A stretch of DNA of 64,000 bases from Rhodanobacter sp. AS-Z3. GTDB lineage: Bacteria; Pseudomonadota; Gammaproteobacteria; Xanthomonadales; Rhodanobacteraceae. Positions 12,526 to 34,764 of the stretch are shown here, in pieces. The stretch lies in NCBI RefSeq assembly GCF_029224025.1, contig NZ_CP119392.1, positions 581,001-645,000 of the forward strand, given 5' to 3'. The notes under the pieces are model-generated. The model searched no databases. It saw only the letters and a program-made list of their open reading frames with translations, and was not told the origin of the DNA. A program made the position numbers and the translations under genes. Every line of letters starts with the position of its first letter. The first letter of the stretch is position 1.

Positions 12526-13460
12526 ACACGCTCATCCGCATATTCAGTGTGCTGGTCTTGTGGCTGCTGGTCAGCCTCGCGCATGCAGGGACCCGCCACT
12601 ACTACTACACCGACCCGCAGGGGACGCCGCTGGCCAAAGCGGATGCTAGTGGCACAATCATCGCTACCTACGACTACGCGCCGTACGGGGTGGCGGTGGC
12701 GAGCATGAGTCCGGCACCGAATGGGCCGGGGTATACGGGGCATGTGAATGATCCGGATACTGGGTTTGTGTATATGCAGGCGCGCTATTACGATCCCGCC
12801 ACCGGGCGCTTCCTCAGCGTTGATCCGGTGACGCCGACTGCTGGCGCTCTGTTTGGCTTCAATCGGTACGACTACGCCAACAACAACCCGATCAATCACA
12901 CGGATCCGGATGGTCGTAGTACTTGTGCGAATGCGAGTTGCACATTGTCAAGAATAGACAGCGTTGTGCCGAGAGCAAATTCTCAGCCTCCTCCGGTCAA
13001 TGGATCACAAGGAATCAGCTCTTCATCTGCAGTTGGGCGAAATGTATCTGCCGGATATGCCGTCAACATAACTTTTCAAAACGACAATCCGCATGGCGCT
13101 AGTCCGGATCAGCCAATTTCCACCGCAACTGCAAATACAGTTGAGAGCACAATTACAGCGTCCGGTGTGCAATCTGTGAACATTAATAGTTCAACTGGCG
13201 GTGCGCATGCAGTCCACAGCTTGCATGCGCAGGGTCGTGCAGTGGACATAGACCGAGTGGATGGGCAGCGGGTAGGTCGCGGAAACGCTGGTGCGGCCGA
13301 TCTTCAACGCGCTGCGCATCAAAATGGCGACGTCAGAGAGAACTTTGGGCCGACAATGATGGAAAGGAGAAATGTTACTGATGGGAGTACTACTCATGTC
13401 GCCAATCAAGCCCTCACGAACGAGCATCGAACACATATTCATGTTGGGGGAGAAGACTAA
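12522..13460 (+). CDS. Secreted RHS core fused to an M15-peptidase-like toxin tip (chimera of host gene and element copy 1)
   Basis: 312 aa. The GTG at 12522 has an ideal GGAGG seven bases upstream and overlaps the previous stop (GTGA). Residues 1-22 are a Sec signal peptide (MNTLIRIFSVLVLWLLVSLA). Residues 25-130 are the conserved RHS core: HYYYTDPQGTPLA, YTGHVNDPDTGFVYMQ, ARYYDPATGRFLSVDP, NRYDYANNNPINHTDPDG. The tip, from about residue 131, ends with HSLHAQGRAVDIDRVDG (S233, H235, G238, D242) and THIHVG (H305, H307). This is the SxHxxGxAxD...HxH zinc pattern of peptidase M15/LAS enzymes, which cut peptidoglycan peptides. Codons from 88 on belong to the integrated element; codons 1-87 to the resident locus. 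Tip DNA is visibly AT-richer than its flanks. The enzyme class is inferred from motifs only. Confidence 0.8.
   Translation: MNTLIRIFSVLVLWLLVSLAHAGTRHYYYTDPQGTPLAKADASGTIIATYDYAPYGVAVASMSPAPNGPGYTGHVNDPDTGFVYMQARYYDPATGRFLSVDPVTPTAGALFGFNRYDYANNNPINHTDPDGRSTCANASCTLSRIDSVVPRANSQPPPVNGSQGISSSSAVGRNVSAGYAVNITFQNDNPHGASPDQPISTATANTVESTITASGVQSVNINSSTGGAHAVHSLHAQGRAVDIDRVDGQRVGRGNAGAADLQRAAHQNGDVRENFGPTMMERRNVTDGSTTHVANQALTNEHRTHIHVGGED
12780..12799 (+). other. attL core of RHS-tip element (copy 1)
   Basis: GCGCGCTATTACGATCCCGC, in frame as Ala-Arg-Tyr-Tyr-Asp-Pro within the RHS core. Identical 20-mers occur at 20102, 27423 and 34745. The left flank here (tatatgcag) is host RHS sequence, unlike the gtcagagtgtt found before the other three. 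Confidence 0.88.
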
Positions 13461-13461
13461 T

Positions 13462-13920
13462 ATGCGCAAATTAGTGTTCGTTCTGGTCGCGATATTTGTC
13501 TCCCCGAGTGCTTTTCCGGCTGACCTTCAACTTCGATTATCAAATAGCTCGCGTTTAGAGGTGGTGGGGTCCTTTACGTCGCGGGAACTTTGGAACGTAA
13601 CCGCGCCGTCATCTGTTACGAACGGGAATGCTATCGTGGATTCTCGAGTATTTGACGCCGAAGCTAGGCCTTCAGACGGCAAATGGCGTGGCTGTGCGAT
13701 CGTAATGGTAGGAACAGGTGACCTTGGCGTGCGGCCTGTTGCATTTCGGGTATGGACAACAGACCGTTGTGAGCTGTCTGTGACCTCTGTGAAAACAAGT
13801 CCGCGCACTGGCTCAGAATTCAGAATGAAACTAAACGAGCGCGAAACTGCAGAGATTTTCGTTAATGCCAGTCTTGATGTCAGCGTTAACGGGAAGGTGA
13901 TAGGTCGCATCAGCGAATAA
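13462..13920 (+). CDS. Candidate periplasmic immunity protein for the RHS M15-like toxin (copy 1)
   Basis: 152 aa, starting one base after the toxin stop, as toxin/immunity pairs usually do. The ATG at 13462 gives MRKLVFVLVAIFVSPSAFPA, a Sec signal peptide; a longer in-frame start at 13372 would bury it inside the chain. The mature part is beta-rich with two cysteines (GCAIVMV, TDRCELSV) that could pair in the periplasm. I do not recognise a family. The signal peptide fits a toxin that acts on cell wall. AT-richer than the rest of the element, like the tip. Confidence 0.72.
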   Translation: MRKLVFVLVAIFVSPSAFPADLQLRLSNSSRLEVVGSFTSRELWNVTAPSSVTNGNAIVDSRVFDAEARPSDGKWRGCAIVMVGTGDLGVRPVAFRVWTTDRCELSVTSVKTSPRTGSEFRMKLNERETAEIFVNASLDVSVNGKVIGRISE

Positions 13921-14147
13921 TACGTAGGCACAAAGGTAGGGCACAAAGGGAACGGAGGGCGAGCCAAAGGGGTCAGAGACATTATCCGACGAGTAGTGGT
14001 GAAGCTTGGTTCGGGCTGTGAGAATGAAGCCCAAGTGCGCACCGAATACCGTCCCGACACGGTAAAATGGAACTCGCTATCACGCGGCTCGTTTTTCCCT
14101 AGCCGCTGGGAAATAGCGCACCCCTCACCGTGGAAATAGGCCCTGCC

Positions 14148-14285
14148 ATGACCGACGCTGAACATGCCGACCTGCTGCGTCGAGCCGCCCTGGAAAACGC
14201 CATCGCGAAGCTCGGGGTCAGGTCTAGCATCGTTGCATTGGACAGGGACGATCCGAGACGTGGAAAGTTAAATCACTTCCTGTGA
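14148..14285 (+). CDS. Possible 45-aa protein (copy 1)
   Basis: Begins MTDAEHADLLRRAALENAIA, charged and helical, no recognised domain and no strong ribosome site. Its 3' end overlaps the opposing 85-aa gene by 13 bases. The abrupt change after KLGVRSS suggests a truncated reading frame. It could be a remnant. Confidence 0.3.
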   Translation: MTDAEHADLLRRAALENAIAKLGVRSSIVALDRDDPRRGKLNHFL

Positions 14286-15444: not shown

Positions 15445-15819
15445 CTACGAATGCATGGCGGCGAGTTGCTTGGTGCGGTTCTTGACGATCAGGCCATCGA
15501 GCACCGCCTGCACCACGTGCAGCTCGTCCGCCGGCAGGTTGGAGACGGCTTCAAACAAGAGCGCCAGACGTGCGTTATGCGGGCCACGTTCGTTGGGATC
15601 GAAAACCAGCTCATCGAGCGACACGTGCAACGCCAGCGCGATCTTCTTCAAACCATCGAGCGACGGCTGGGCGTTACCGGCTTCGTACCGGCGCACCTGA
15701 TTGACGTGCAGCCCGGCCAGATCGGCAAGGTCGTTCTGGGTCAGGTTCTGGAACTTGCGCAGGCGCACCAGGTTGGCGGCAATGCTCATGCAGAAATGTC
15801 GTAAGGGGATGGTGTGCAT
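15445..15819 (-). CDS. XRE-family repressor of the element (copy 1)
   Basis: 124 aa if it starts at the ATG 15817-15819, which has AGGG nine bases upstream; an alternative start at 15789 gives MSIAANLVRLRKFQ with no clear ribosome site. The helix-turn-helix reads LTQNDLADLAGLHVNQVRRYEAGNAQPSLDGLKKIALAL, a standard HTH_3 domain, followed by a short helical tail. It is divergent from the primase operon, and the intergenic space holds a 19-bp palindrome, so it probably represses primase-recombinase expression and itself, like a lysogeny regulator. Confidence 0.85.
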   Translation of the reverse strand: MHTIPLRHFCMSIAANLVRLRKFQNLTQNDLADLAGLHVNQVRRYEAGNAQPSLDGLKKIALALHVSLDELVFDPNERGPHNARLALLFEAVSNLPADELHVVQAVLDGLIVKNRTKQLAAMHS

Positions 15820-15922: not shown

Positions 15923-18900
15923 ATGGCACGCATCCCCGAGAGCGAGATCGAGCGGCTAAAAGCGACGGTGGCGGTGCAGCGGCTGGTGGAGGCGCGCGGT
16001 ATCGAGCTGGTGCGGCAAGGGGCAGACTGGCTCGGCCGCTGCCCGTTCCACGCTGACAAGACGCCGTCGCTGGTGGTGTCGCCCGCGAAGAACCTGTGGC
16101 ACTGCTCAGGCGCATGCCAGATCGGTGGCGGTCCGATCGACTGGGTGATGAAGGCCGAGGGCGTGAGCTTCCGCCATGCGGTGGAACTGCTGCGCGAAGG
16201 GATGCCGGCGGTGTCGGCGAGCGATCGCGTCGTGCGTGTCTCGACGGTGCCGAAGCTGCCCGCTCCGGTGTCACCGGATGCAGATGATCGCGAGCTGCTG
16301 CGTCAGGTGATCGACTACTACCACGACACCTTGCAGCACAGCCCCGAAGCGCTCGCGTATCTGCAGTCACGCGGCCTGAATCACCCCGAGCTGATCGAGC
16401 GCTTCCGCTTGGGCTTTGCCAATCGCACGCTGGGCCTGCGCCTGCCGGAAAAGAACCGCAAGGCCGGTGCAGAAATCCGCACGCGCCTGCAGGCGCTGGG
16501 TCTGGTGCGCGACTCCGGCCACGAACACTTCAACGGCTCGCTGGTCATCCCGATCCTGGACGACCACGGCGACGTGACGGAAATTTACGGCCGCAAGATC
16601 ACCACGCACCTGCGTCCCGGCACGCCGCTGCACCTGTACCTGCCCGGTCCGCATGCGGGCGTGTGGAACCGCGAAGGCTTGGCCGGTGCTGCGGAAGTGA
16701 TCGTGTGCGAGGCGCTGATCGACGCGATGACCTTCTGGTGTGCGGGCTATCGGAACGTCACCGCCGCCTACGGCGTGGAAGGCTTCACCGCCGATCATTT
16801 AGCGGCCCTGCAGCAGACCGGCACCGAGCGCGTGCTGATCGCCTATGACCGCGATGCCGCTGGTGACGCCGCCGCTGCAAAGCTGGCCAAGCAGCTGATG
16901 GCGATCGGCATCGCGTGTTACCGCATCCAGTTTCCCAAAGGCATGGATGCCAATGCGTACGCCCAGCACGTGCAACCGGCCACGAAATCGCTTGGCCTGG
17001 TGATCCGTCAGGCGGTGTGGCTGGGCGAGGGTCTGGCACCGAGCCGATCGCGTGAGCCGGCGATGATCGCGGCCGATCCGTCGCCGATCGTGCCGGTACC
17101 GATCGCGCCGGCATCGGTCACTCCCTTTTTAGCCGCTGCCGTTGACGTGCTGCCCGTGCCGCCCGAAGCCTCCCCGCCCGACGTGCCGCCGGCCGGGGTG
17201 CCGACCCCGGCGCCACCGGCGTGTCCGCCGGCGGTCACCGAGATCAGCGAGACGGAAGTCGTGATGACCTTCGCCGCACGTCGTTATCGGGTGCGCGGTC
17301 TGGCCCGCAACCTCAGCCCGGACACCTTGAAGGTGAATCTGATGGTGACGCAGGGCGAGACGTTTTACGTGGACACGCTGGACCTCTACAACGCCCGCGT
17401 CCGCACCGGCTACGCTGCACAGGCAGCGCTCGCGCTGGACGTGAGCGACGGCGTGATGCACGCCGATATGGGCCGGGTGTTGCGCGAGCTCGAAGCGGTG
17501 CAGGATGCAGCGATCCGTCAGGCGCTGGAACCGGACGTGCCGGCGTCGGTGGCCCTGAGCGAGGACGATCACACCGCCGCACTCGCGCTGCTGACCGCCC
17601 CGGACGTGCTGGAACAGATCCTCGCGGACTTCGCCGCCTGCGGTGTGGTGGGCGAACGCACCAATCTGCTGATCGGTTATCTGGCGGCGGTCTCGCGCAA
17701 GCTGCGCGCACCGTTGGCGGTGGTGGTGCAAAGCACCTCGGCGGCCGGCAAGTCGGCGCTGATGGAAGCGGTGCTGGCCTTCGTGCCGGAGGAAGAGCGC
17801 CTGCGTTACTCGGCGATGACCGGGCAGAGCCTGTATTACCTGGGCCAGACCCAGCTCAAGCACAAGATCCTGGCCATCGCCGAGGAAGAAGGCGTGCGCC
17901 GGGCCGCGTATGCCTTGAAGCTGCTGCAGTCCGAAGGCGAGCTGACGATCGCCAGCACCGGCAAAGATCCGACCACCGGCAATCTGATCACGCAGGAGTA
18001 CCGGGTCGAAGGCCCGGTGATGATCTTCCTGACCACCACCGCGATCGAGATCGACGAGGAACTGTTGAACCGTTGCCTCGTGCTGACGGTGGACGAGGGG
18101 CGCGAGCAGACGCAGGCGATCCATCGCCGCCAGCGCACCCGGCGCACGCTCGATGGGCTGCTGGCCAGCGAAGAGCGCGAGCACTGCTGCACCCGGCAGC
18201 AGAACGCACAGCGCCTGTTGCGTCCGCTGGCCGTGGTCAATCCCTACGCTGACCAGCTGACCTTCATGGACGACCGCACGCGCACCCGCCGCGATCACGA
18301 AAAGTACCTCACCCTGATCGACACGATCGCGCTGCTGCATCAGTACCAGCGCCCGATCCTCACCACCACGCACCGCGGCACCACGATCGAGTACATCGAG
18401 GTGACGCGCGAGGACATCGCGCAGGCCAATGCACTGGCGCACGACCTGCTCGGTCGCAGTCTCGATGAACTGCCGCCGCAGACGCGCCGCCTGCTGCAGG
18501 CGTTGTGCGCGATAGTGGAAAACCGCCGGCAGGCCGAGGCGATCCCGCGCAGTGAGCTGCGCTTCAGCCGGCGCGACGTGCGCGAGGCCACCGCGTGGGG
18601 CGACACGCAGCTGCGCGTGCACCTGGAACGACTGGTGACGCTGGAATACCTGCTCGTGCACCGTGGCCAGCGCGGCCAGAGTTTTGTTTACGAGCTGCGT
18701 TATGACGGCGACGGCACGGCAGCGGCACACCTGTCCGGCCTGATCGACGTGGCTACGATGACGACCTCGCGGGGGTCTGATAGTGAGAACGCGGGGCCAT
18801 CGCGGCCGGGTCGCGGCATCAACGCGGCCCCTCCGCGTGCGCCTGAAACCCCCGCCAACCCGCAGCGGTCCACGCCTGCCGCGCTTCCGCCCACGGCGCC

Positions 18901-18970
18901 GCGTCCCACGCACGTCATCGGCCCCCACGGTGGAGCGGTGTCGTACCCGTCCGCTGCACGCCACGCCTGA
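15923..18970 (+). CDS. Replication protein: CHC2 zinc finger, toprim primase and P-loop ATPase (copy 1)
   Basis: 1015 aa; ATG after AAGGTAGG. Residues 40-65 form a DnaG-type zinc finger: C40, H43 (CPFHADKTPS) and C61, C65 (WHCSGAC; one residue longer than in DnaG). The primase core follows, then toprim with VIVCEALIDAM near 263 and AYDRDAAGD near 308. A proline-rich linker (about 380-435) leads to a C-terminal ATPase with STSAAGKSAL near 603-612 and FLTTTAIEIDEELLNR, a helicase-like module. The C-terminal 60 residues are low-complexity. It likely primes and drives replication of the excised element. The recombinase starts two bases after its stop, so they form one operon. Confidence 0.85.
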   Translation: MARIPESEIERLKATVAVQRLVEARGIELVRQGADWLGRCPFHADKTPSLVVSPAKNLWHCSGACQIGGGPIDWVMKAEGVSFRHAVELLREGMPAVSASDRVVRVSTVPKLPAPVSPDADDRELLRQVIDYYHDTLQHSPEALAYLQSRGLNHPELIERFRLGFANRTLGLRLPEKNRKAGAEIRTRLQALGLVRDSGHEHFNGSLVIPILDDHGDVTEIYGRKITTHLRPGTPLHLYLPGPHAGVWNREGLAGAAEVIVCEALIDAMTFWCAGYRNVTAAYGVEGFTADHLAALQQTGTERVLIAYDRDAAGDAAAAKLAKQLMAIGIACYRIQFPKGMDANAYAQHVQPATKSLGLVIRQAVWLGEGLAPSRSREPAMIAADPSPIVPVPIAPASVTPFLAAAVDVLPVPPEASPPDVPPAGVPTPAPPACPPAVTEISETEVVMTFAARRYRVRGLARNLSPDTLKVNLMVTQGETFYVDTLDLYNARVRTGYAAQAALALDVSDGVMHADMGRVLRELEAVQDAAIRQALEPDVPASVALSEDDHTAALALLTAPDVLEQILADFAACGVVGERTNLLIGYLAAVSRKLRAPLAVVVQSTSAAGKSALMEAVLAFVPEEERLRYSAMTGQSLYYLGQTQLKHKILAIAEEEGVRRAAYALKLLQSEGELTIASTGKDPTTGNLITQEYRVEGPVMIFLTTTAIEIDEELLNRCLVLTVDEGREQTQAIHRRQRTRRTLDGLLASEEREHCCTRQQNAQRLLRPLAVVNPYADQLTFMDDRTRTRRDHEKYLTLIDTIALLHQYQRPILTTTHRGTTIEYIEVTREDIAQANALAHDLLGRSLDELPPQTRRLLQALCAIVENRRQAEAIPRSELRFSRRDVREATAWGDTQLRVHLERLVTLEYLLVHRGQRGQSFVYELRYDGDGTAAAHLSGLIDVATMTTSRGSDSENAGPSRPGRGINAAPPRAPETPANPQRSTPAALPPTAPRPTHVIGPHGGAVSYPSAARHA

Positions 18971-18972
18971 GC

Positions 18973-19971
18973 ATGGCCGGCAAACGCACCGAACAGTTGC
19001 AGCGGCTGCTGGCTCCGGCCGCGCCCGAGGCGCTGGCCACGTGGATACAGCGCTATCTGGAAACCCTGCAGACCCAGCACCGCAGCGTGGCCGACCAGCG
19101 CACCCGGCGCAGCCGTCTGGCGCACTTCCATGCGTGGTGCCTGGATCAGGAGCTGACGACGCCGGCCCAGGTCACGCACATGACGATGGAGCGCTTCCAG
19201 CGGCACCTGTTCCTGTACCGCAAGGCCAACGGCGCACCGATCGCGATCAACGGGCAGCGCGTGGCGCTGTTTACCATCGAGATGTTCTTCCGCTGGCTGG
19301 TCCGTCATCAAGTGGTGACGTCCAACCCGGTGGCCGACCTGGAACTGCCCAAACGCACCGACGACCTGCGCGAACCGTTGACGCTGGCCGAGGTGGCCAC
19401 GGTGCTGGCCTTGCCGAATCTGGCCACGCCGGAAGGGCTGCGTGATCGGGTGGTGCTGGAGGTGCTGTATGCCACCGGCCTGCGCCGTGCCGAGGTGACC
19501 CATCTGGCGGTGAGTGACCTGGATCGTGAGCGTGGCACGCTGCACGTGCGTCTGGGCAAGGGCCGTAAGGATCGCTTCGTGCCGGTAGGCGAGCGGGCGC
19601 TGGCGTGGATCGCCAAGTACGAACGCGAGGCCCGTCCGGTGTTGCTGGCCGAGCCGGGCGAACGCCGGTTGTTCCTGAATCAGTACGGCCAGCCGCTATC
19701 GCCCGATGGCCTGAGCTGGCGTGTGCGCGATTACTTCCGCCAGGCCGGCATCGAGAAGCGCGGTGCCTGTCATCTGTTCCGGCACACGATGGCCACCGCG
19801 ATGCTGGACAACGGCGCCGACATCCGCCACATCCAGGAAATCCTCGGGCACGGGCAGATCACCAGCACCCAGCGCTATACGCACGTGTCGATCGCCCGGC
19901 TCAAAGCGGTGCATACCGCCACCCATCCGGCGGCCCGACTGCACCGCGACCTGGACGACCCGCAAGACTGA
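18973..19971 (+). CDS. Tyrosine recombinase (integrase) of the RHS-tip element (copy 1)
   Basis: 332 aa, XerC/XerD-like. The N-terminal SAM-like DNA-binding domain covers about 15-120. The catalytic domain has all expected residues: R in YATGLRRAEV, K in LGKGRKDRFV, HLFRHT (H-x-x-R), LGHGQI, and the nucleophile Y in TQRYTH near residue 301. It starts two bases after the primase stop and lies 131 bases from the right-hand att core, the normal place for an integrase. It should catalyse integration at, and excision from, the ARYYDP-coding core. An intact copy is present in all three units. Confidence 0.93.
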   Translation: MAGKRTEQLQRLLAPAAPEALATWIQRYLETLQTQHRSVADQRTRRSRLAHFHAWCLDQELTTPAQVTHMTMERFQRHLFLYRKANGAPIAINGQRVALFTIEMFFRWLVRHQVVTSNPVADLELPKRTDDLREPLTLAEVATVLALPNLATPEGLRDRVVLEVLYATGLRRAEVTHLAVSDLDRERGTLHVRLGKGRKDRFVPVGERALAWIAKYEREARPVLLAEPGERRLFLNQYGQPLSPDGLSWRVRDYFRQAGIEKRGACHLFRHTMATAMLDNGADIRHIQEILGHGQITSTQRYTHVSIARLKAVHTATHPAARLHRDLDDPQD

Positions 19972-20101
19972 TCCCAAGGAACCGCAGACAGCGCGGCCGC
20001 ATCGCGCTAAGGTGCTTCCGTGCGCGCAGGTGCGCGAGGCCAAAGGGGTATCCATAGGAAAACGGCGACGGTAGGGCGAGGGCACGTCGGGTCAGAGTGT
20101 T

Positions 20102-20121
20102 GCGCGCTATTACGATCCCGC
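20102..20121 (+). other. att core, junction of copies 1 and 2
   Basis: GCGCGCTATTACGATCCCGC preceded by gtcagagtgtt (element right end) and followed by caccgggcg (element left end): the hybrid expected of attP or of tandem integration. Confidence 0.88.
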
Positions 20122-20782
20122 CACCGGGCGCTTCCTCAGCGTTGATCCGGTGACGCCGACTGCTGGCGCTCTGTTTGGCTTCAATCGGTACGACTACGCC
20201 AACAACAACCCGATCAATCACACGGATCCGGATGGTCGTAGTACTTGTGCGAATGCGAGTTGCACATTGTCAAGAATAGACAGCGTTGTGCCGAGAGCAA
20301 ATTCTCAGCCTCCTCCGGTCAATGGATCACAAGGAATCAGCTCTTCATCTGCAGTTGGGCGAAATGTATCTGCCGGATATGCCGTCAACATAACTTTTCA
20401 AAACGACAATCCGCATGGCGCTAGTCCGGATCAGCCAATTTCCACCGCAACTGCAAATACAGTTGAGAGCACAATTACAGCGTCCGGTGTGCAATCTGTG
20501 AACATTAATAGTTCAACTGGCGGTGCGCATGCAGTCCACAGCTTGCATGCGCAGGGTCGTGCAGTGGACATAGACCGAGTGGATGGGCAGCGGGTAGGTC
20601 GCGGAAACGCTGGTGCGGCCGATCTTCAACGCGCTGCGCATCAAAATGGCGACGTCAGAGAGAACTTTGGGCCGACAATGATGGAAAGGAGAAATGTTAC
20701 TGATGGGAGTACTACTCATGTCGCCAATCAAGCCCTCACGAACGAGCATCGAACACATATTCATGTTGGGGGAGAAGACTAA
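20102..20782 (+). pseudogene. Orphan RHS tip without a start (copy 2)
   Basis: Same ARYYDP..toxin sequence as codons 88-312 of the chimera, but the frame runs back only to a TAG about 30 bases upstream (near 20072), with no ATG, signal peptide or core before it. The first internal candidate start is the GTG at 20150, after the core motif. It is probably not expressed as a functional toxin; its immunity gene is intact. Confidence 0.75.
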
Positions 20783-20783
20783 T

Positions 20784-21242
20784 ATGCGCAAATTAGTGTT
20801 CGTTCTGGTCGCGATATTTGTCTCCCCGAGTGCTTTTCCGGCTGACCTTCAACTTCGATTATCAAATAGCTCGCGTTTAGAGGTGGTGGGGTCCTTTACG
20901 TCGCGGGAACTTTGGAACGTAACCGCGCCGTCATCTGTTACGAACGGGAATGCTATCGTGGATTCTCGAGTATTTGACGCCGAAGCTAGGCCTTCAGACG
21001 GCAAATGGCGTGGCTGTGCGATCGTAATGGTAGGAACAGGTGACCTTGGCGTGCGGCCTGTTGCATTTCGGGTATGGACAACAGACCGTTGTGAGCTGTC
21101 TGTGACCTCTGTGAAAACAAGTCCGCGCACTGGCTCAGAATTCAGAATGAAACTAAACGAGCGCGAAACTGCAGAGATTTTCGTTAATGCCAGTCTTGAT
21201 GTCAGCGTTAACGGGAAGGTGATAGGTCGCATCAGCGAATAA
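20784..21242 (+). CDS. Candidate immunity protein (copy 2)
   Basis: Identical to the protein at 13462-13920, including the signal peptide. It would raise immunity dosage even though the adjacent tip is silent, if a promoter reaches it. Confidence 0.68.
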   Translation: MRKLVFVLVAIFVSPSAFPADLQLRLSNSSRLEVVGSFTSRELWNVTAPSSVTNGNAIVDSRVFDAEARPSDGKWRGCAIVMVGTGDLGVRPVAFRVWTTDRCELSVTSVKTSPRTGSEFRMKLNERETAEIFVNASLDVSVNGKVIGRISE

Positions 21243-21469
21243 TACGTAGGCACAAAGGTAGGGCACAAAGGGAACGGAGGGCGAGCCAAAGGGGTCAGAG
21301 ACATTATCCGACGAGTAGTGGTGAAGCTTGGTTCGGGCTGTGAGAATGAAGCCCAAGTGCGCACCGAATACCGTCCCGACACGGTAAAATGGAACTCGCT
21401 ATCACGCGGCTCGTTTTTCCCTAGCCGCTGGGAAATAGCGCACCCCTCACCGTGGAAATAGGCCCTGCC

Positions 21470-21607
21470 ATGACCGACGCTGAACATGCCGACCTGCTGC
21501 GTCGAGCCGCCCTGGAAAACGCCATCGCGAAGCTCGGGGTCAGGTCTAGCATCGTTGCATTGGACAGGGACGATCCGAGACGTGGAAAGTTAAATCACTT
21601 CCTGTGA
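21470..21607 (+). CDS. Possible 45-aa protein (copy 2)
   Basis: Same sequence as 14148-14285; weak support for translation. Confidence 0.28.
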   Translation: MTDAEHADLLRRAALENAIAKLGVRSSIVALDRDDPRRGKLNHFL

Positions 21608-21852: not shown

Positions 21853-21958
21853 GGCGTTCTCTCCTGATCGTAAGTCCCGCCCATCCTGACAGCATGCAAC
21901 GGATGCCGGCGATGGTTGATGCCGTGCTGCTCTTGCGCCATGGCCCGCGATGACAAAA

Positions 21959-26200: not shown

Positions 26201-26291
26201 CGCGCTTCCGCCCACGGCGCCGCGTCCCACGCACGTCATCGGCCCCCACGGTGGAGCGGTGTCGTACCCGTCCGCTGCACGCCACGCCTGA
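23245..26291 (+). pseudogene. Primase/ATPase gene, frameshifted in the proline-rich linker (copy 2)
   Basis: Reads as copy 1 for about 425 codons, then one G of a GGGG run is missing (CCGGCCGGGTGCC instead of CCGGCCGGGGTGCC, near 24519). The first frame ends at 24585 after 446 aa (zinc finger plus toprim, then a false tail RPRRHRRVRR). The ATPase half is open from 24519 to 26291. The two halves split exactly between primase and ATPase domains, so a partly functional truncated primase is possible. Codon 62 is TCG (Ser). A homopolymer base-call error cannot be excluded. Confidence 0.82.
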
Positions 26292-26293
26292 GC

Positions 26294-27292
26294 ATGGCCG
26301 GCAAACGCACCGAACAGTTGCAGCGGCTGCTGGCTCCGGCCGCGCCCGAGGCGCTGGCCACGTGGATACAGCGCTATCTGGAAACCCTGCAGACCCAGCA
26401 CCGCAGCGTGGCCGACCAGCGCACCCGGCGCAGCCGTCTGGCGCACTTCCATGCGTGGTGCCTGGATCAGGAGCTGACGACGCCGGCCCAGGTCACGCAC
26501 ATGACGATGGAGCGCTTCCAGCGGCACCTGTTCCTGTACCGCAAGGCCAACGGCGCACCGATCGCGATCAACGGGCAGCGCGTGGCGCTGTTTACCATCG
26601 AGATGTTCTTCCGCTGGCTGGTCCGTCATCAAGTGGTGACGTCCAACCCGGTGGCCGACCTGGAACTGCCCAAACGCACCGACGACCTGCGCGAACCGTT
26701 GACGCTGGCCGAGGTGGCCACGGTGCTGGCCTTGCCGAATCTGGCCACGCCGGAAGGGCTGCGTGATCGGGTGGTGCTGGAGGTGCTGTATGCCACCGGC
26801 CTGCGCCGTGCCGAGGTGACCCATCTGGCGGTGAGTGACCTGGATCGTGAGCGTGGCACGCTGCACGTGCGTCTGGGCAAGGGCCGTAAGGATCGCTTCG
26901 TGCCGGTAGGCGAGCGGGCGCTGGCGTGGATCGCCAAGTACGAACGCGAGGCCCGTCCGGTGTTGCTGGCCGAGCCGGGCGAACGCCGGTTGTTCCTGAA
27001 TCAGTACGGCCAGCCGCTATCGCCCGATGGCCTGAGCTGGCGTGTGCGCGATTACTTCCGCCAGGCCGGCATCGAGAAGCGCGGTGCCTGTCATCTGTTC
27101 CGGCACACGATGGCCACCGCGATGCTGGACAACGGCGCCGACATCCGCCACATCCAGGAAATCCTCGGGCACGGGCAGATCACCAGCACCCAGCGCTATA
27201 CGCACGTGTCGATCGCCCGGCTCAAAGCGGTGCATACCGCCACCCATCCGGCGGCCCGACTGCACCGCGACCTGGACGACCCGCAAGACTGA
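26294..27292 (+). CDS. Tyrosine recombinase (copy 2)
   Basis: 332 aa, identical to 18973-19971, with all catalytic residues. It remains intact downstream of the frameshifted primase, although translational coupling to that gene is lost. Confidence 0.92.
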   Translation: MAGKRTEQLQRLLAPAAPEALATWIQRYLETLQTQHRSVADQRTRRSRLAHFHAWCLDQELTTPAQVTHMTMERFQRHLFLYRKANGAPIAINGQRVALFTIEMFFRWLVRHQVVTSNPVADLELPKRTDDLREPLTLAEVATVLALPNLATPEGLRDRVVLEVLYATGLRRAEVTHLAVSDLDRERGTLHVRLGKGRKDRFVPVGERALAWIAKYEREARPVLLAEPGERRLFLNQYGQPLSPDGLSWRVRDYFRQAGIEKRGACHLFRHTMATAMLDNGADIRHIQEILGHGQITSTQRYTHVSIARLKAVHTATHPAARLHRDLDDPQD

Positions 27293-27422
27293 TCCCAAGG
27301 AACCGCAGACAGCGCGGCCGCATCGCGCTAAGGTGCTTCCGTGCGCGCAGGTGCGCGAGGCCAAAGGGGTATCCATAGGAAAACGGCGACGGTAGGGCGA
27401 GGGCACGTCGGGTCAGAGTGTT

Positions 27423-27442
27423 GCGCGCTATTACGATCCCGC
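27423..27442 (+). other. att core, junction of copies 2 and 3
   Basis: Same 20-mer with the same hybrid flanks as at 20102. Confidence 0.88.
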
Positions 27443-28103
27443 CACCGGGCGCTTCCTCAGCGTTGATCCGGTGACGCCGACTGCTGGCGCTCTGTTTGGC
27501 TTCAATCGGTACGACTACGCCAACAACAACCCGATCAATCACACGGATCCGGATGGTCGTAGTACTTGTGCGAATGCGAGTTGCACATTGTCAAGAATAG
27601 ACAGCGTTGTGCCGAGAGCAAATTCTCAGCCTCCTCCGGTCAATGGATCACAAGGAATCAGCTCTTCATCTGCAGTTGGGCGAAATGTATCTGCCGGATA
27701 TGCCGTCAACATAACTTTTCAAAACGACAATCCGCATGGCGCTAGTCCGGATCAGCCAATTTCCACCGCAACTGCAAATACAGTTGAGAGCACAATTACA
27801 GCGTCCGGTGTGCAATCTGTGAACATTAATAGTTCAACTGGCGGTGCGCATGCAGTCCACAGCTTGCATGCGCAGGGTCGTGCAGTGGACATAGACCGAG
27901 TGGATGGGCAGCGGGTAGGTCGCGGAAACGCTGGTGCGGCCGATCTTCAACGCGCTGCGCATCAAAATGGCGACGTCAGAGAGAACTTTGGGCCGACAAT
28001 GATGGAAAGGAGAAATGTTACTGATGGGAGTACTACTCATGTCGCCAATCAAGCCCTCACGAACGAGCATCGAACACATATTCATGTTGGGGGAGAAGAC
28101 TAA
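27423..28103 (+). pseudogene. Orphan RHS tip without a start (copy 3)
   Basis: Same arrangement as 20102-20782: in-frame TAG upstream, no start before the ARYYDP motif. Confidence 0.75.
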
Positions 28104-28104
28104 T

Positions 28105-28563
28105 ATGCGCAAATTAGTGTTCGTTCTGGTCGCGATATTTGTCTCCCCGAGTGCTTTTCCGGCTGACCTTCAACTTCGATTATCAAATAGCTCGCGTTTA
28201 GAGGTGGTGGGGTCCTTTACGTCGCGGGAACTTTGGAACGTAACCGCGCCGTCATCTGTTACGAACGGGAATGCTATCGTGGATTCTCGAGTATTTGACG
28301 CCGAAGCTAGGCCTTCAGACGGCAAATGGCGTGGCTGTGCGATCGTAATGGTAGGAACAGGTGACCTTGGCGTGCGGCCTGTTGCATTTCGGGTATGGAC
28401 AACAGACCGTTGTGAGCTGTCTGTGACCTCTGTGAAAACAAGTCCGCGCACTGGCTCAGAATTCAGAATGAAACTAAACGAGCGCGAAACTGCAGAGATT
28501 TTCGTTAATGCCAGTCTTGATGTCAGCGTTAACGGGAAGGTGATAGGTCGCATCAGCGAATAA
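28105..28563 (+). CDS. Candidate immunity protein (copy 3)
   Basis: Identical to 13462-13920. Confidence 0.68.
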   Translation: MRKLVFVLVAIFVSPSAFPADLQLRLSNSSRLEVVGSFTSRELWNVTAPSSVTNGNAIVDSRVFDAEARPSDGKWRGCAIVMVGTGDLGVRPVAFRVWTTDRCELSVTSVKTSPRTGSEFRMKLNERETAEIFVNASLDVSVNGKVIGRISE

Positions 28564-28790
28564 TACGTAGGCACAAAGGTAGGGCACAAAGGGAACGGAG
28601 GGCGAGCCAAAGGGGTCAGAGACATTATCCGACGAGTAGTGGTGAAGCTTGGTTCGGGCTGTGAGAATGAAGCCCAAGTGCGCACCGAATACCGTCCCGA
28701 CACGGTAAAATGGAACTCGCTATCACGCGGCTCGTTTTTCCCTAGCCGCTGGGAAATAGCGCACCCCTCACCGTGGAAATAGGCCCTGCC

Positions 28791-28928
28791 ATGACCGACG
28801 CTGAACATGCCGACCTGCTGCGTCGAGCCGCCCTGGAAAACGCCATCGCGAAGCTCGGGGTCAGGTCTAGCATCGTTGCATTGGACAGGGACGATCCGAG
28901 ACGTGGAAAGTTAAATCACTTCCTGTGA
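28791..28928 (+). CDS. Possible 45-aa protein (copy 3)
   Basis: Same sequence as 14148-14285; weak support. Confidence 0.28.
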   Translation: MTDAEHADLLRRAALENAIAKLGVRSSIVALDRDDPRRGKLNHFL

Positions 28929-29173
28929 TCGTCGCGCCAGACACGCCCCGCCGCGAGCGCTTCCTCGCACGAAGCGAAGGTCTCACTGGGTCCGCTGGTG
29001 ATATTGCCATCCTGCGTCCACAGCTCCCAGCGACCGTCACGCCGCCAGCTCGGCACGGCGGCGTAACCCTGAGCTTCCAGCGCCGGCACGATGGCATCGA
29101 CCTCGGGCCGCAGCGTGAGCTGTCCGTTCCATATCAGCGGCGTGCCGCAGCGTCCCGCGCGATGGCTGGTCAT
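28916..29173 (-). CDS. Hypothetical 85-aa protein (copy 3)
   Basis: Identical to 14273-14530. Confidence 0.58.
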   Translation of the reverse strand: MTSHRAGRCGTPLIWNGQLTLRPEVDAIVPALEAQGYAAVPSWRRDGRWELWTQDGNITSGPSETFASCEEALAAGRVWRDDHRK

Positions 29174-29279
29174 GGCGTTCTCTCCTGATCGTAAGTCCCG
29201 CCCATCCTGACAGCATGCAACGGATGCCGGCGATGGTTGATGCCGTGCTGCTCTTGCGCCATGGCCCGCGATGACAAAA

Positions 29280-29374
29280 GCCGCAGAACCGCCGCAGAGC
29301 ATCGGCACGAAGATCCACAAAGCAGCCGCAGAACAGCCGCAAAGCATCGGCACGCGCCGCAGAGCAGCCGCAGA
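29280..29374 (+). repeat. Paired GCCGCAGA octamers (copy 3)
   Basis: Same layout as 14637-14731. Confidence 0.53.
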
Positions 29375-29496
29375 ACCACGATTCCACCACAACCGGCATC
29401 GTCCGAGAACGTGCCGTGAAATAATCGGGCATCTGCGGCTCCGGAATTGTCGTTGAATCGTGGCGAGTCGTGCGCGAAGTGCGGGCAAGATAGGTG

Positions 29497-29510
29497 ATGT
29501 AGGCCTACAT
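29497..29510. promoter_or_regulatory. Palindrome ATGTAGGCCTACAT (copy 3)
   Basis: Third copy of the 14-bp perfect palindrome. Confidence 0.43.
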
Positions 29511-29612
29511 TTGAAAATGTTGGCCACCATCACGTGCCTTATTCGCGCCGGTGGCGCTCAACGGAATCTTGTCCTGCGGAGCGGGCCGGCTGCCGCCGAC
29601 AGGGGCGGATGA

Positions 29613-29933
29613 TCAGCCGGGATCGTCGACCGGGCGGTGATAGATATCGAGCATGTCTTTTATCACCGCGGAGGCGTCGTCCGGTACGGGGTTGGCGAGC
29701 ACCTCGGCGAAGGCGCGGGCGGTCACGCTCATGTGATACCAGCGCTTGCGAAAGACCGTCGGCCCGAGGCTTTTGCGCGCCTTCGCGGCGCACAGCGTGA
29801 GCACCAGGAAGGCGAGCGTGTGCTCGGGAACGTCAGGCACTTGCTCACGCAGTTGCCGGAAGAGGTCGCCGGTGGCGCCGAGCGCATGGGTTAGCGCATC
29901 GGTACCTTGGTAGGGATCGTGCGGATCAGGCAT
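29613..29933 (-). CDS. Hypothetical 106-aa protein (copy 3)
   Basis: Identical to 14970-15290. Confidence 0.58.
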   Translation of the reverse strand: MPDPHDPYQGTDALTHALGATGDLFRQLREQVPDVPEHTLAFLVLTLCAAKARKSLGPTVFRKRWYHMSVTARAFAEVLANPVPDDASAVIKDMLDIYHRPVDDPG

Positions 29934-29955
29934 GGGGATCGTCCTGTGCAAAAGG

Positions 29956-29975
29956 ACCGGGCGAGAACGCCCGGT
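29956..29975 (-). terminator. Hairpin ACCGGGCG/CGCCCGGT (copy 3)
   Basis: Same hairpin as 15313-15332. Confidence 0.48.
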
Positions 29976-30087
29976 GTGTAATGTCTTTTAGAAAAACAAA
30001 AACCCACCGCTCAGGCTGCCGTGGGCATCCTGTGCGATGGGTCGGTGCGATCGTCGGCAACGCGCCGGATCGTTATCGTTTTAGCCG

Positions 30088-30462
30088 CTACGAATGCATG
30101 GCGGCGAGTTGCTTGGTGCGGTTCTTGACGATCAGGCCATCGAGCACCGCCTGCACCACGTGCAGCTCGTCCGCCGGCAGGTTGGAGACGGCTTCAAACA
30201 AGAGCGCCAGACGTGCGTTATGCGGGCCACGTTCGTTGGGATCGAAAACCAGCTCATCGAGCGACACGTGCAACGCCAGCGCGATCTTCTTCAAACCATC
30301 GAGCGACGGCTGGGCGTTACCGGCTTCGTACCGGCGCACCTGATTGACGTGCAGCCCGGCCAGATCGGCAAGGTCGTTCTGGGTCAGGTTCTGGAACTTG
30401 CGCAGGCGCACCAGGTTGGCGGCAATGCTCATGCAGAAATGTCGTAAGGGGATGGTGTGCAT
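30088..30462 (-). CDS. XRE-family repressor (copy 3)
   Basis: Identical to 15445-15819; alternative start at 30432. Confidence 0.83.
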   Translation of the reverse strand: MHTIPLRHFCMSIAANLVRLRKFQNLTQNDLADLAGLHVNQVRRYEAGNAQPSLDGLKKIALALHVSLDELVFDPNERGPHNARLALLFEAVSNLPADELHVVQAVLDGLIVKNRTKQLAAMHS

Positions 30463-30483
30463 GAGGCTAACCCTGGGTTCTGA

Positions 30484-30502
30484 GTAGGTTTGACAAACCT
30501 AC
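30484..30502. promoter_or_regulatory. Operator palindrome (copy 3)
   Basis: GTAGGTTTGACAAACCTAC, as in copy 1. Confidence 0.68.
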
Positions 30503-30565
30503 CCTAGTGGGTATCACAATACAACCCTGAAAGGGTATTGACACCCATCCCAACAAGGTAGGTTT

Positions 30566-33500
30566 ATGGCACGCATCCCCGAGAGCGAGATCGAGCGGCT
30601 AAAAGCGACGGTGGCGGTGCAGCGGCTGGTGGAGGCGCGCGGTATCGAGCTGGTGCGGCAAGGGGCAGACTGGCTCGGCCGCTGCCCGTTCCACGCTGAC
30701 AAGACGCCGTCGCTGGTGGTGTCGCCCGCGAAGAACCTGTGGCACTGCCTGGGCGCATGCCAGATCGGTGGCGGTCCGATCGACTGGGTGATGAAGGCCG
30801 AGGGCGTGAGCTTCCGCCATGCGGTGGAACTGCTGCGCGAAGGGATGCCGGCGGTGTCGGCGAGCGATCGCGTCGTGCGTGTCTCGACGGTGCCGAAGCT
30901 GCCCGCTCCGGTGTCACCGGATGCAGATGATCGCGAGCTGCTGCGTCAGGTGATCGACTACTACCACGACACCTTGCAGCACAGCCCCGAAGCGCTCGCG
31001 TATCTGCAGTCACGCGGCCTGAATCACCCCGAGCTGATCGAGCGCTTCCGCTTGGGCTTTGCCAATCGCACGCTGGGCCTGCGCCTGCCGGAAAAGAACC
31101 GCAAGGCCGGTGCAGAAATCCGCACGCGCCTGCAGGCGCTGGGTCTGGTGCGCGACTCCGGCCACGAACACTTCAACGGCTCGCTGGTCATCCCGATCCT
31201 GGACGACCACGGCGACGTGACGGAAATTTACGGCCGCAAGATCACCACGCACCTGCGTCCCGGCACGCCGCTGCACCTGTACCTGCCCGGTCCGCATGCG
31301 GGCGTGTGGAACCGCGAAGGCTTGGCCGGTGCTGCGGAAGTGATCGTGTGCGAGGCGCTGATCGACGCGATGACCTTCTGGTGTGCGGGCTATCGGAACG
31401 TCACCGCCGCCTACGGCGTGGAAGGCTTCACCGCCGATCATTTAGCGGCCCTGCAGCAGACCGGCACCGAGCGCGTGCTGATCGCCTATGACCGCGATGC
31501 CGCTGGTGACGCCGCCGCTGCAAAGCTGGCCAAGCAGCTGATGGCGATCGGCATCGCGTGTTACCGCATCCAGTTTCCCAAAGGCATGGATGCCAATGCG
31601 TACGCCCAGCACGTGCAACCGGCCACGAAATCGCTTGGCCTGGTGATCCGTCAGGCGGTGTGGCTGGGCGAGGGTCTGGCACCGAGCCGATCGCGTGAGC
31701 CGGCGATGATCGCGGCCGATCCGTCGCCGATCGTGCCGGTACCGATCGCGCCGGCATCGGTCACTCCCTTTTTAGCCGCTGCCGTTGACGTGCTGCCCGT
31801 GCCGCCCGAAGCCTCCCCGCCCGACGTGCCGCCGGCCGGGGTGCCGACCCCGGCGCCACCGGCGTGTCCGCCGGCGGTCACCGAGATCAGCGAGACGGAA
31901 GTCGTGATGACCTTCGCCGCACGTCGTTATCGGGTGCGCGGTCTGGCCCGCAACCTCAGCCCGGACACCTTGAAGGTGAATCTGATGGTGACGCAGGGCG
32001 AGACGTTTTACGTGGACACGCTGGACCTCTACAACGCCCGCGTCCGCACCGGCTACGCTGCACAGGCAGCGCTCGCGCTGGACGTGAGCGACGGCGTGAT
32101 GCACGCCGATATGGGCCGGGTGTTGCGCGAGCTCGAAGCGGTGCAGGATGCAGCGATCCGTCAGGCGCTGGAACCGGACGTGCCGGCGTCGGTGGCCCTG
32201 AGCGAGGACGATCACACCGCCGCACTCGCGCTGCTGACCGCCCCGGACGTGCTGGAACAGATCCTCGCGGACTTCGCCGCCTGCGGTGTGGTGGGCGAAC
32301 GCACCAATCTGCTGATCGGTTATCTGGCGGCGGTCTCGCGCAAGCTGCGCGCACCGTTGGCGGTGGTGGTGCAAAGCACCTCGGCGGCCGGCAAGTCGGC
32401 GCTGATGGAAGCGGTGCTGGCCTTCGTGCCGGAGGAAGAGCGCCTGCGTTACTCGGCGATGACCGGGCAGAGCCTGTATTACCTGGGCCAGACCCAGCTC
32501 AAGCACAAGATCCTGGCCATCGCCGAGGAAGAAGGCGTGCGCCGGGCCGCGTATGCCTTGAAGCTGCTGCAGTCCGAAGGCGAGCTGACGATCGCCAGCA
32601 CCGGCAAAGATCCGACCACCGGCAATCTGATCACGCAGGAGTACCGGGTCGAAGGCCCGGTGATGATCTTCCTGACCACCACCGCGATCGAGATCGACGA
32701 GGAACTGTTGAACCGTTGCCTCGTGCTGACGGTGGACGAGGGGCGCGAGCAGACGCAGGCGATCCATCGCCGCCAGCGCACCCGGCGCACGCTCGATGGG
32801 CTGCTGGCCAGCGAAGAGCGCGAGCACTGCTGCACCCGGCAGCAGAACGCACAGCGCCTGTTGCGTCCGCTGGCCGTGGTCAATCCCTACGCTGACCAGC
32901 TGACCTTCATGGACGACCGCACGCGCACCCGCCGCGATCACGAAAAGTACCTCACCCTGATCGACACGATCGCGCTGCTGCATCAGTACCAGCGCCCGAT
33001 CCTCACCACCACGCACCGCGGCACCACGATCGAGTACATCGAGGTGACGCGCGAGGACATCGCGCAGGCCAATGCACTGGCGCACGACCTGCTCGGTCGC
33101 AGTCTCGATGAACTGCCGCCGCAGACGCGCCGCCTGCTGCAGGCGTTGTGCGCGATAGTGGAAAACCGCCGGCAGGCCGAGGCGATCCCGCGCAGTGAGC
33201 TGCGCTTCAGCCGGCGCGACGTGCGCGAGGCCACCGCGTGGGGCGACACGCAGCTGCGCGTGCACCTGGAACGACTGGTGACGCTGGAATACCTGCTCGT
33301 GCACCGTGGCCAGCGCGGCCAGAGTTTTGTTTACGAGCTGCGTTATGACGGCGACGGCACGGCAGCGGCACACCTGTCCGGCCTGATCGACGTGGCTACG
33401 ATGACGACCTCGCGGGGGTCTGATAGTGAGAACGCGGGGCCATCGCGGCCGGGTCGCGGCATCAACGCGGCCCCTCCGCGTGCGCCTGAAACCCCCGCCA

Positions 33501-33613
33501 ACCCGCAGCGGTCCACGCCTGCCGCGCTTCCGCCCACGGCGCCGCGTCCCACGCACGTCATCGGCCCCCACGGTGGAGCGGTGTCGTACCCGTCCGCTGC
33601 ACGCCACGCCTGA
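30566..33613 (+). CDS. Primase/ATPase replication protein (copy 3)
   Basis: 1015 aa, intact. It matches copy 1 except residue 62, Leu (CTG) in place of Ser: the finger reads WHCLGAC, nearer to the hydrophobic residue of DnaG (YHCFGC). Copies 1 and 3 could supply the function lost in copy 2. Confidence 0.85.
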   Translation: MARIPESEIERLKATVAVQRLVEARGIELVRQGADWLGRCPFHADKTPSLVVSPAKNLWHCLGACQIGGGPIDWVMKAEGVSFRHAVELLREGMPAVSASDRVVRVSTVPKLPAPVSPDADDRELLRQVIDYYHDTLQHSPEALAYLQSRGLNHPELIERFRLGFANRTLGLRLPEKNRKAGAEIRTRLQALGLVRDSGHEHFNGSLVIPILDDHGDVTEIYGRKITTHLRPGTPLHLYLPGPHAGVWNREGLAGAAEVIVCEALIDAMTFWCAGYRNVTAAYGVEGFTADHLAALQQTGTERVLIAYDRDAAGDAAAAKLAKQLMAIGIACYRIQFPKGMDANAYAQHVQPATKSLGLVIRQAVWLGEGLAPSRSREPAMIAADPSPIVPVPIAPASVTPFLAAAVDVLPVPPEASPPDVPPAGVPTPAPPACPPAVTEISETEVVMTFAARRYRVRGLARNLSPDTLKVNLMVTQGETFYVDTLDLYNARVRTGYAAQAALALDVSDGVMHADMGRVLRELEAVQDAAIRQALEPDVPASVALSEDDHTAALALLTAPDVLEQILADFAACGVVGERTNLLIGYLAAVSRKLRAPLAVVVQSTSAAGKSALMEAVLAFVPEEERLRYSAMTGQSLYYLGQTQLKHKILAIAEEEGVRRAAYALKLLQSEGELTIASTGKDPTTGNLITQEYRVEGPVMIFLTTTAIEIDEELLNRCLVLTVDEGREQTQAIHRRQRTRRTLDGLLASEEREHCCTRQQNAQRLLRPLAVVNPYADQLTFMDDRTRTRRDHEKYLTLIDTIALLHQYQRPILTTTHRGTTIEYIEVTREDIAQANALAHDLLGRSLDELPPQTRRLLQALCAIVENRRQAEAIPRSELRFSRRDVREATAWGDTQLRVHLERLVTLEYLLVHRGQRGQSFVYELRYDGDGTAAAHLSGLIDVATMTTSRGSDSENAGPSRPGRGINAAPPRAPETPANPQRSTPAALPPTAPRPTHVIGPHGGAVSYPSAARHA

Positions 33614-33615
33614 GC

Positions 33616-34614
33616 ATGGCCGGCAAACGCACCGAACAGTTGCAGCGGCTGCTGGCTCCGGCCGCGCCCGAGGCGCTGGCCACGTGGATACAGCGCTATC
33701 TGGAAACCCTGCAGACCCAGCACCGCAGCGTGGCCGACCAGCGCACCCGGCGCAGCCGTCTGGCGCACTTCCATGCGTGGTGCCTGGATCAGGAGCTGAC
33801 GACGCCGGCCCAGGTCACGCACATGACGATGGAGCGCTTCCAGCGGCACCTGTTCCTGTACCGCAAGGCCAACGGCGCACCGATCGCGATCAACGGGCAG
33901 CGCGTGGCGCTGTTTACCATCGAGATGTTCTTCCGCTGGCTGGTCCGTCATCAAGTGGTGACGTCCAACCCGGTGGCCGACCTGGAACTGCCCAAACGCA
34001 CCGACGACCTGCGCGAACCGTTGACGCTGGCCGAGGTGGCCACGGTGCTGGCCTTGCCGAATCTGGCCACGCCGGAAGGGCTGCGTGATCGGGTGGTGCT
34101 GGAGGTGCTGTATGCCACCGGCCTGCGCCGTGCCGAGGTGACCCATCTGGCGGTGAGTGACCTGGATCGTGAGCGTGGCACGCTGCACGTGCGTCTGGGC
34201 AAGGGCCGTAAGGATCGCTTCGTGCCGGTAGGCGAGCGGGCGCTGGCGTGGATCGCCAAGTACGAACGCGAGGCCCGTCCGGTGTTGCTGGCCGAGCCGG
34301 GCGAACGCCGGTTGTTCCTGAATCAGTACGGCCAGCCGCTATCGCCCGATGGCCTGAGCTGGCGTGTGCGCGATTACTTCCGCCAGGCCGGCATCGAGAA
34401 GCGCGGTGCCTGTCATCTGTTCCGGCACACGATGGCCACCGCGATGCTGGACAACGGCGCCGACATCCGCCACATCCAGGAAATCCTCGGGCACGGGCAG
34501 ATCACCAGCACCCAGCGCTATACGCACGTGTCGATCGCCCGGCTCAAAGCGGTGCATACCGCCACCCATCCGGCGGCCCGACTGCACCGCGACCTGGACG
34601 ACCCGCAAGACTGA
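33616..34614 (+). CDS. Tyrosine recombinase (copy 3)
   Basis: Identical to the other two recombinases. It lies 131 bases from attR at the outer edge of the array. Confidence 0.92.
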   Translation: MAGKRTEQLQRLLAPAAPEALATWIQRYLETLQTQHRSVADQRTRRSRLAHFHAWCLDQELTTPAQVTHMTMERFQRHLFLYRKANGAPIAINGQRVALFTIEMFFRWLVRHQVVTSNPVADLELPKRTDDLREPLTLAEVATVLALPNLATPEGLRDRVVLEVLYATGLRRAEVTHLAVSDLDRERGTLHVRLGKGRKDRFVPVGERALAWIAKYEREARPVLLAEPGERRLFLNQYGQPLSPDGLSWRVRDYFRQAGIEKRGACHLFRHTMATAMLDNGADIRHIQEILGHGQITSTQRYTHVSIARLKAVHTATHPAARLHRDLDDPQD

Positions 34615-34744
34615 TCCCAAGGAACCGCAGACAGCGCGGCCGCATCGCGCTAAGGTGCTTCCGTGCGCGCAGGTGCGCGAGGCCAAAGGGGTATCCATAG
34701 GAAAACGGCGACGGTAGGGCGAGGGCACGTCGGGTCAGAGTGTT

Positions 34745-34764
34745 GCGCGCTATTACGATCCCGC
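34745..34764 (+). other. attR core, right end of the array
   Basis: GCGCGCTATTACGATCCCGC preceded by element sequence (gtcagagtgtt) but followed by tgtggggagg, which is not element sequence. The match to the element stops exactly after the 20-mer, which defines the core length. Confidence 0.88.

Follow-up and report, generated by a model that had tools for sequence, protein, structure and literature searches.

The current study describes a small integrative element in Rhodanobacter sp. AS-Z3 whose attachment site is very probably a coding motif of a polymorphic-toxin gene. The element lies in a 64,000-nucleotide stretch (contig NZ_CP119392.1, positions 581,001 to 645,000), here termed the window, for which an earlier note had proposed three things: that a 20-bp core encoding the ARYYDP motif of an RHS gene bounds each copy of an integrative element, that host RHS sequence lies to the left of the first core, and that the element has its own recombinase, primase and repressor. 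All three proposals were borne out. The core GCGCGCTATTACGATCCCGC is present at 12780, 20102, 27423 and 34745, no other match turns up in the window even when 3 mismatches are allowed (0.01 expected by chance), and the degenerate core pattern GCNCGNTAYTAYGAYCCNGC finds the same four places only in the whole 4.09-Mb single-contig genome. These cores are direct repeats that delimit three near-identical copies with unit lengths of 7322, 7321 and 7322 bp. Three adjacent bases distinguish copy 1 from copy 3, whereas copy 2 departs from both by one or two bases at the same spot plus one base missing further on. The small RHS open reading frame (ORF) left of the first core matches Rhs_assc_core (TIGR03696, 79.9 bits vs a cut-off of 32.5) and crosses that core in frame into the tip supplied by the element, ending at 13460. 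We read its start as the GTG at 12522, overlapping the stop of a 2155-residue RHS ORF, and its open frame extends further upstream, to an ATG at 12153. Family matches support the recombinase (PF00589, Phage_integrase, E 6e-39), the primase and the repressor (Table 1). Core-bounded insertion, in-frame fusion and displacement of the native tip can all be read from the sequence of the window, and its relatives add empty sites and circular forms.

Table 1. Features of the RHS locus and of the element array, in positions of the window.
Feature	Position	Strand	Basis or remark
Upstream RHS gene, 2155 amino acids, outside the element	6058..12525	+	RHS repeats; repeats spaced 531 bp near 3' end
Host part of the small RHS ORF	12522..12779	+	apparent signal peptide (by eye) and start of RHS-associated core
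attL core, codons ARYYDPA	12780..12799	+	core search
RHS-core end supplied by the element and new tip	12800..13460	+	M15-type-like motif, sub-threshold Pfam match
Putative immunity gene, 152 amino acids	13462..13920	+	signal peptide apparent by eye; no family
Cro/CI-type repressor	15445..15819	-	family search
DnaG-type primase (zinc ribbon, TOPRIM)	15923..18970	+	Walker-A-like run in C-terminal part, by eye
Tyrosine recombinase	18973..19971	+	NCBIfam PRK01287 'XerC' subfamily, 374 bits vs cut-off 371
Element right end CACGTCGGGTCAGAGTGTT	20083..20101	+	directly before core; same run at 27404-27422 and 34726-34744
Second copy, core first	20102..27422	+	primase frame split by 1-bp deletion
Third copy, core first	27423..34744	+	core and copy comparison
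attR core	34745..34764	+	core search
Displaced native RHS tail, short	34765..34963	+	homologue of L151 tail
DDE transposase gene (DUF772 + DDE_Tnp_1), outside the element	35089..36066	-	after displaced tail

Based upon this arrangement, we propose that the tyrosine recombinase of the element would recombine the short core of a circular form with the matching codons of the host gene. This would fuse the 5' part of the host gene in frame to the last domain of the element, a putative toxin tip with a presumed immunity gene behind it, and push the old tip downstream, behind the recombinase. Tandem arrays would arise from repeated integration or from circle multimers; only the first tip would have a delivery scaffold, and the tips of copies 2 and 3 would presumably be silent. 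The reverse reaction would free circles, which are probably replicated with the element primase and might pass between cells. Site-specific integration of a circle at the core would account not only for the precise junctions and the in-frame fusion but also for the displaced tip, the arrays and the circles. With regard to copy 2, a 1-bp deletion at ~24517 splits its primase frame, which is open in copies 1 and 3.

The right flank of the array bears upon both the origin and the fate of the native tip. The continuation past the last core (34745-34963) shares 79% identity over 61 amino acids with the tail of an uninterrupted gene from another genome of the same family (L151), and the likeness extends beyond the RHS core into the tip. 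Because this uninterrupted gene continues after ARYYDP with a homologous tail, the right flank can be interpreted as the displaced native tip. Whether uninterrupted relatives keep the displaced continuation had been set beforehand as a refuting test; L151 does keep it, as do, for a relative element, the cdiA genes of 25 E. coli genomes with a 13-bp overlap, described below. The further expectation that the continuation would complete the host gene held only with respect to homology. The displaced tip comprises 65 amino acids after the core vs ~250 in L151 and has a transposase gene behind it, and therefore excision would leave this strain without a full-length gene. Among family relatives, 24 of the 29 loci examined have an open motif and 22 of these 24 run on for at least 197 amino acids past it, with diverse tips.

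The earlier note had also held that the element supplies the end of the RHS core, a toxin and an immunity gene. The in-frame core end and the tip stand as described, whereas the toxicity of the tip and its neutralization by the product of the next gene are predictions. The window gene combines an RHS-associated core with tips that vary after ARYYDP among relatives, as in RHS polymorphic toxins, and the gene that follows is its presumed immunity gene. The motif S-x-H-x-x-G-R-A-V-D-I ... H-x-H of the tip reads like that of an M15-type zinc peptidase, and, from a reading of the tips that follow ARYYDP in relatives, it resembles the tip of L150. A secreted-looking protein of 152 amino acids would suit immunity against a periplasmic enzyme.

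To place the element among its relatives, a scan of public genomes with the recombinase yielded 74 distinct loci, drawn from the best 80 among 351 matching stretches and spread over many phyla. Our working set, after longer stretches were fetched, comprised 101 loci including the window; four entries had been dropped (the duplicates L165, L091 and L101 and the adjoining stretch L104), and the duplicate pair L098/L167 is counted twice among the 101 loci and once in the recombinase tree. A primase match is present no more than 4.5 kb upstream of a recombinase in 96 of the 101 loci, the exceptions being L053, L066, L082, L097 and L175. At E 1e-70, the recombinase was found in 11/233 genomes of the family, 10/377 of the class and 8/396 of the phylum, the genome of AS-Z3 included, and the RHS carrier gene was matched in 114/230 family genomes. 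In the named records examined, these recombinases are annotated as 'XerC', and because of this they may have been overlooked.

The surroundings of these recombinases link the family to genes of toxin type. A profile of the RHS core end gave 69 matches on the recombinase strand and 0 on the opposite strand across the 101 loci (65 and 0 without the window), and since the profile was built from matches in these same loci, the number of matches is not independent, although their strand is. Matches were present in 42 of the 101 loci and in 26 of the 47 loci of at least 12 kb, and the same profile gave 0 matches in 387,864 bp of control sequence (20 stretches around XerC/D genes of relatives). Upstream sequence of 5 kb or more, counted from the primase or, if there is none, from the recombinase, is available for 32 loci (the window being one of them), and 24 of these have a large or RHS-type secreted-toxin gene there: an RHS gene in 15 (L031, L032, L034, L040, L043, L049, L057, L108, L111, L112, L113, L173, L174, L176 and the window), a filamentous haemagglutinin (FHA)/CdiA gene in five (L075, L092, L097, L172 and L175), a giant He_PIG/LysM gene in three (L105, L109 and L110) and, in L058, an ORF of 1584 amino acids whose displaced tail has a pretoxin HINT domain. 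In two further loci (L037 and L044), RHS is found on the right only. The upstream ORFs of L172 and L175 end in the known toxin families Tox-HNH-HHH and EndoU. The expected association of recombinase homologues with RHS genes at ARYYDP is in this way upheld as a link to toxin genes, but it is wider than RHS and ARYYDP, and the codons vary by clade. A strict ARYYDP regular expression had given almost nothing near relatives, an apparent refutation; tblastn and the profile then found RHS cores spelled QRYYDP, ARFYAP etc.

A rival explanation is that this is a general phage-satellite-like element that prefers toxin genes by chance, its tip merely repairing an interrupted gene, as e14 does in icd, with no exchange of toxins. 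Small size, a repressor, a primase and a recombinase do resemble those of satellites, and restoration of a gene end is a known trick of integration. However, the tips are unlike the displaced ones and also unlike one another between nearly identical elements, the tip of the window and those of the Lonsdalea and E. coli members have a small gene behind them, and no record of the phage collection covers 80% of the primase. We consider this explanation unlikely. Two loci of the family were found in viral contigs of the phage and viral collections.

A second rival concerns the reaction itself. In the proposal of Jackson et al., RecA-type homologous recombination between conserved cores would insert the tips via circles, and the recombinase and primase would be passengers. 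Besides being a published model (PMC2935791, in its passages on tip displacement), this explanation draws upon the longer homology at some right-hand sites and upon the 164 bp shared at the insertion in E. coli GXU. The attachment sites themselves speak against it, and we regard it as quite improbable. Across 13 attL/attR pairs, the common runs measure 11 to 41 bp with unrelated left flanks; in the window, L029, L076 and E. coli C10, the runs span just 11-20 bp, a length at which homologous recombination is not efficient. In addition, the element has its recombinase at the right end, ahead of the right site, and the run that borders the core on the left is conserved among members of a clade. 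On its left side, attR is unlike attL and conserved within clades, and the right side of attL is the in-frame tip; the run GCGTCGGGTCAGAGTGTT, for instance, lies directly left of attR in L029 and L031, and GCGTCGGGTGATACTGTT follows the recombinase in L081, L092, L096, L172 and L175. These pairs were restricted to in-frame ones, as a direct-repeat search alone gives many chance matches of 12-14 bp. The core codons are ARYYDPA in the window, QRYYDP in L029, L031 and L032, VGAKG in L175, AAKGV in L047, WGYQGNPFGE in L112, and, in E. coli, DPIGL (rhs) and VENN (cdiA). The pattern G[CT]GTC[AG]GG was tried as a family-wide signature and rejected: it is found within 1500 bp after 39 of the 92 recombinases with at least 1000 bp downstream, vs a whole-locus density of 0.21 per 1500 bp. 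This enrichment is moderate only, and the pattern is a clade marker.

In E. coli, occupied and empty sites can be compared. The primase-recombinase DNA of an Enterobacter relative is matched in 59 of 5426 E. coli genomes, and in 4 of these the match covers at least 80% of that DNA. The element of strain C10 is located in cdiA between two copies of TGTTGAGAATAAC, a 13-bp core formed by the VENN codons, and the displaced cdiA tail matches 38 E. coli genomes. When the left flank and the tail were searched apart, they overlapped by exactly 13 bp in 25 of these 38 and were separated by a gap of 7,769 bp in C10 and C11. To judge from these alignments, of which strain 1303 vs the cdiA of C10 is an example, the 25 genomes carry the empty site with its single core. 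An empty rhs site was likewise sought with the displaced tail of E. coli D6, and the four records examined, of 115 matching, all carry the element. In QA-1986 630, an element end precedes an orphan VENN module with no recombinase gene in its 13.3-kb stretch, and it looks like a scar; the same end occurs at 12 places in 8 of the 5426 genomes. In E. coli TK3046 (L246), a tip/immunity module that lacks a recombinase has displaced the native cdiA tail, with 1,745 bp from flank to tail, perhaps reflecting a decayed element or homologous exchange.

Arrays and circular forms among the relatives are also in keeping with integration of circles. Two or three recombinases are present in 13 of the 101 loci. 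In G056, two tandem elements have recombinase genes that are 98.4% identical in DNA, and its three tips (fused, between and displaced) are all different; in E. coli D6, two elements follow in succession behind one rhs gene. Three almost identical copies could conceivably point to an assembly artefact or to a simple tandem duplication of an ordinary RHS tip, but the window array lies on one contig, its copies differ, the same architecture recurs in other genomes, and there are the multi-recombinase loci just mentioned, all of which makes this third explanation extremely improbable. As for circles, a circular plasmid of 11,289 bp is on record for Lonsdalea populi (NZ_CP072857.1), with one annotated primase, one recombinase and two RHS tips that both have a small gene behind them. 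It reads as one intact element plus a decayed one, in which a second primase survives as remnants; both elements begin with an RHS tip at the DPIG codons. Terminal overlaps were found in nine contigs, being 91-141 bp in six. Reading of their ORF lists suggests a candidate tip followed by a small gene in each of these six circular-looking contigs, together with a repressor-like ORF or its place, a primase and a recombinase. The circular records known to us come from relatives (the Lonsdalea plasmid and the six contigs), with none for the window's own element, and they suggest that integration may be reversible. Three contigs with relatives of the element (L086, L088 and L052) belong to one metagenome-assembled genome (Myxococcota MO_167.B37); the candidate tips of L086 and L088, two of the six circular-looking contigs, share their first residues and are then unrelated.

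Several observations weigh against the proposed integration of toxin tips at coding motifs. The Pfam match of the window tip to Peptidase_M15_3 (E 0.005) is below the family cut-off, and assignment of the tip to a PDB relative failed, none being better than E 0.78. Among the 32 loci with sufficient upstream sequence, two are ambiguous (L169 and L171) and four have no toxin gene in view (L082, L089, L094 and L166); the upstream ORF of L058 has no Pfam match, and the He_PIG/LysM genes of L105, L109 and L110 are presumed toxins. The recombinase also has relatives in phage records, and 149 of these cover at least 80% of it, all at <60% identity. Longer left/right homology at the sites of L047, L050, L097 and L112 makes homologous recombination possible there, and E. 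coli GXU vs QA-1986 630 was ruled out as a clean empty-site pair on account of the 164 shared bp. The six circular-looking contigs could be free circles or in part collapsed tandem arrays. Flank and tail are spaced otherwise in 7 of the 38 genomes that match the cdiA tail, and in another 4 the tail is unpaired with the left flank among the 60 matches listed. Finally, the element end is present at only 4 of 38 VENN sites (six E. coli loci), and therefore we make no claim that orphans in general arise in this manner.

With respect to the evolution of the family, at least 4 changes of scaffold are needed to account for the 58 labelled rows of the recombinase tree (48 RHS, 7 FHA and 3 LysM), a quick tree with weak deep branches in which the RHS label takes in weak matches; no scaffold could be assigned to 48 of its 107 recombinases, which also speaks against the proposed integration. 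Given these scaffold changes, it seems that clades have switched from one motif to another. In two relatives, the primase has a TrwC relaxase gene upstream of it (L037, 3268-6030; L089, 3343-6156), and because of this some family members may be mobilised by conjugation; no relaxase was found among the eight ORFs scanned in the window element. SymE or DinJ/RelE-like toxin-antitoxin genes are also found in enterobacterial members (L235, L238-L242 and L247), either next to the repressor or behind the recombinase. Leptospira plasmid records make up 10 of the 20 primase matches listed, with 41-44% identity over 88-94% of the length.

The surroundings of the element array contain additional features of interest. 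Near the 3' end of the 2155-residue RHS gene, three 300-nt stretches (10828-12189) recur at a spacing of 531 bp, with 77 and 70% identity to the first, and probably represent repeated surface domains. A Gabija defence pair is found a few kb from the array, as two overlapping ORFs (39451-43762) match the GajA (E 4e-285) and GajB (E 2e-221) entries of PADLOC.

Parts of this scheme have precedents. Integrative elements that restore a gene end are known; prophages e14 and 21 integrate inside icd and replace the 3' end of the gene in frame. There, the replaced end keeps its function, whereas here a different tip arrives with its own neighbouring gene. The shufflon of plasmid R64 employs a tyrosine recombinase to exchange C-terminal segments of one protein, but it inverts resident segments, while the window element brings new ones from outside; unlike the inverted sites of a shufflon, the four cores of the window run in direct orientation. 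In its passages on displacement, Jackson et al. 2009 (PMC2935791) describe attached Rhs tips being displaced downstream by new tips via a circular intermediate, as well as arrays of dissociated tips, and the model needs a circle and uses homologous recombination. Displaced tips, circles and arrays are common to both accounts, to which the present one adds a recombinase, short cores and a deposited circle. Poole et al. 2011 (PMC3150448) consider recombination between VENN-encoding sequences, Ruhe et al. 2016 (PMC4927057) point to integrases that lie among orphan modules and suggest site-specific recombination, and a 2020 review (PMC7662968) gives homologous recombination for tip exchange where it treats the subject. 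The orphan cdiA-CT/cdiI modules of PMC3150448 and PMC4927057 resemble our loci in their silent toxin/immunity arrays behind cdiA and in their exchange at VENN, but the passages concerned do not name an element, a core, a recombinase family or an empty site; here, a core with its occupied and empty sites is identified. The Burkholderia transposon of PMC6350997 places genes for contact-dependent growth inhibition (CDI) on a mobile element, with the whole CDI locus on it according to its title and the start of its abstract, whereas here a tip fuses to a resident scaffold. Within the open-access literature, outside of which lie most subscription papers and bioRxiv, we found no description of this element or of one whose restored gene end is a new effector.

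A broader reading is that these elements form a class that spans phyla, has specialised in polymorphic-toxin genes and handles toxin tips in the manner of an integron. Such a class would use clade-specific pre-toxin motifs (RYYDP, DPIGL, VENN, VGAKG and LysM-scaffold sites), stack tip/immunity cassettes, reshuffle the one that is fused to the scaffold, and be a main source of orphan tips in Rhs/CDI loci. We find this plausible and lean slightly away from it at present. The exchange of toxin tips and immunity genes in Rhs and CDI systems has been under discussion since at least 2009, as the relevant part of PMC2935791 attests. Since E. coli offers both empty and occupied alleles, and circular records and a candidate dedicated recombinase with its sites are also at hand, the question of tip exchange can now be tested directly in a laboratory strain. 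If the proposed integration is correct, the attachment site would be kept because the protein motif is kept, and this would explain why points of exchange coincide with motifs such as VENN.

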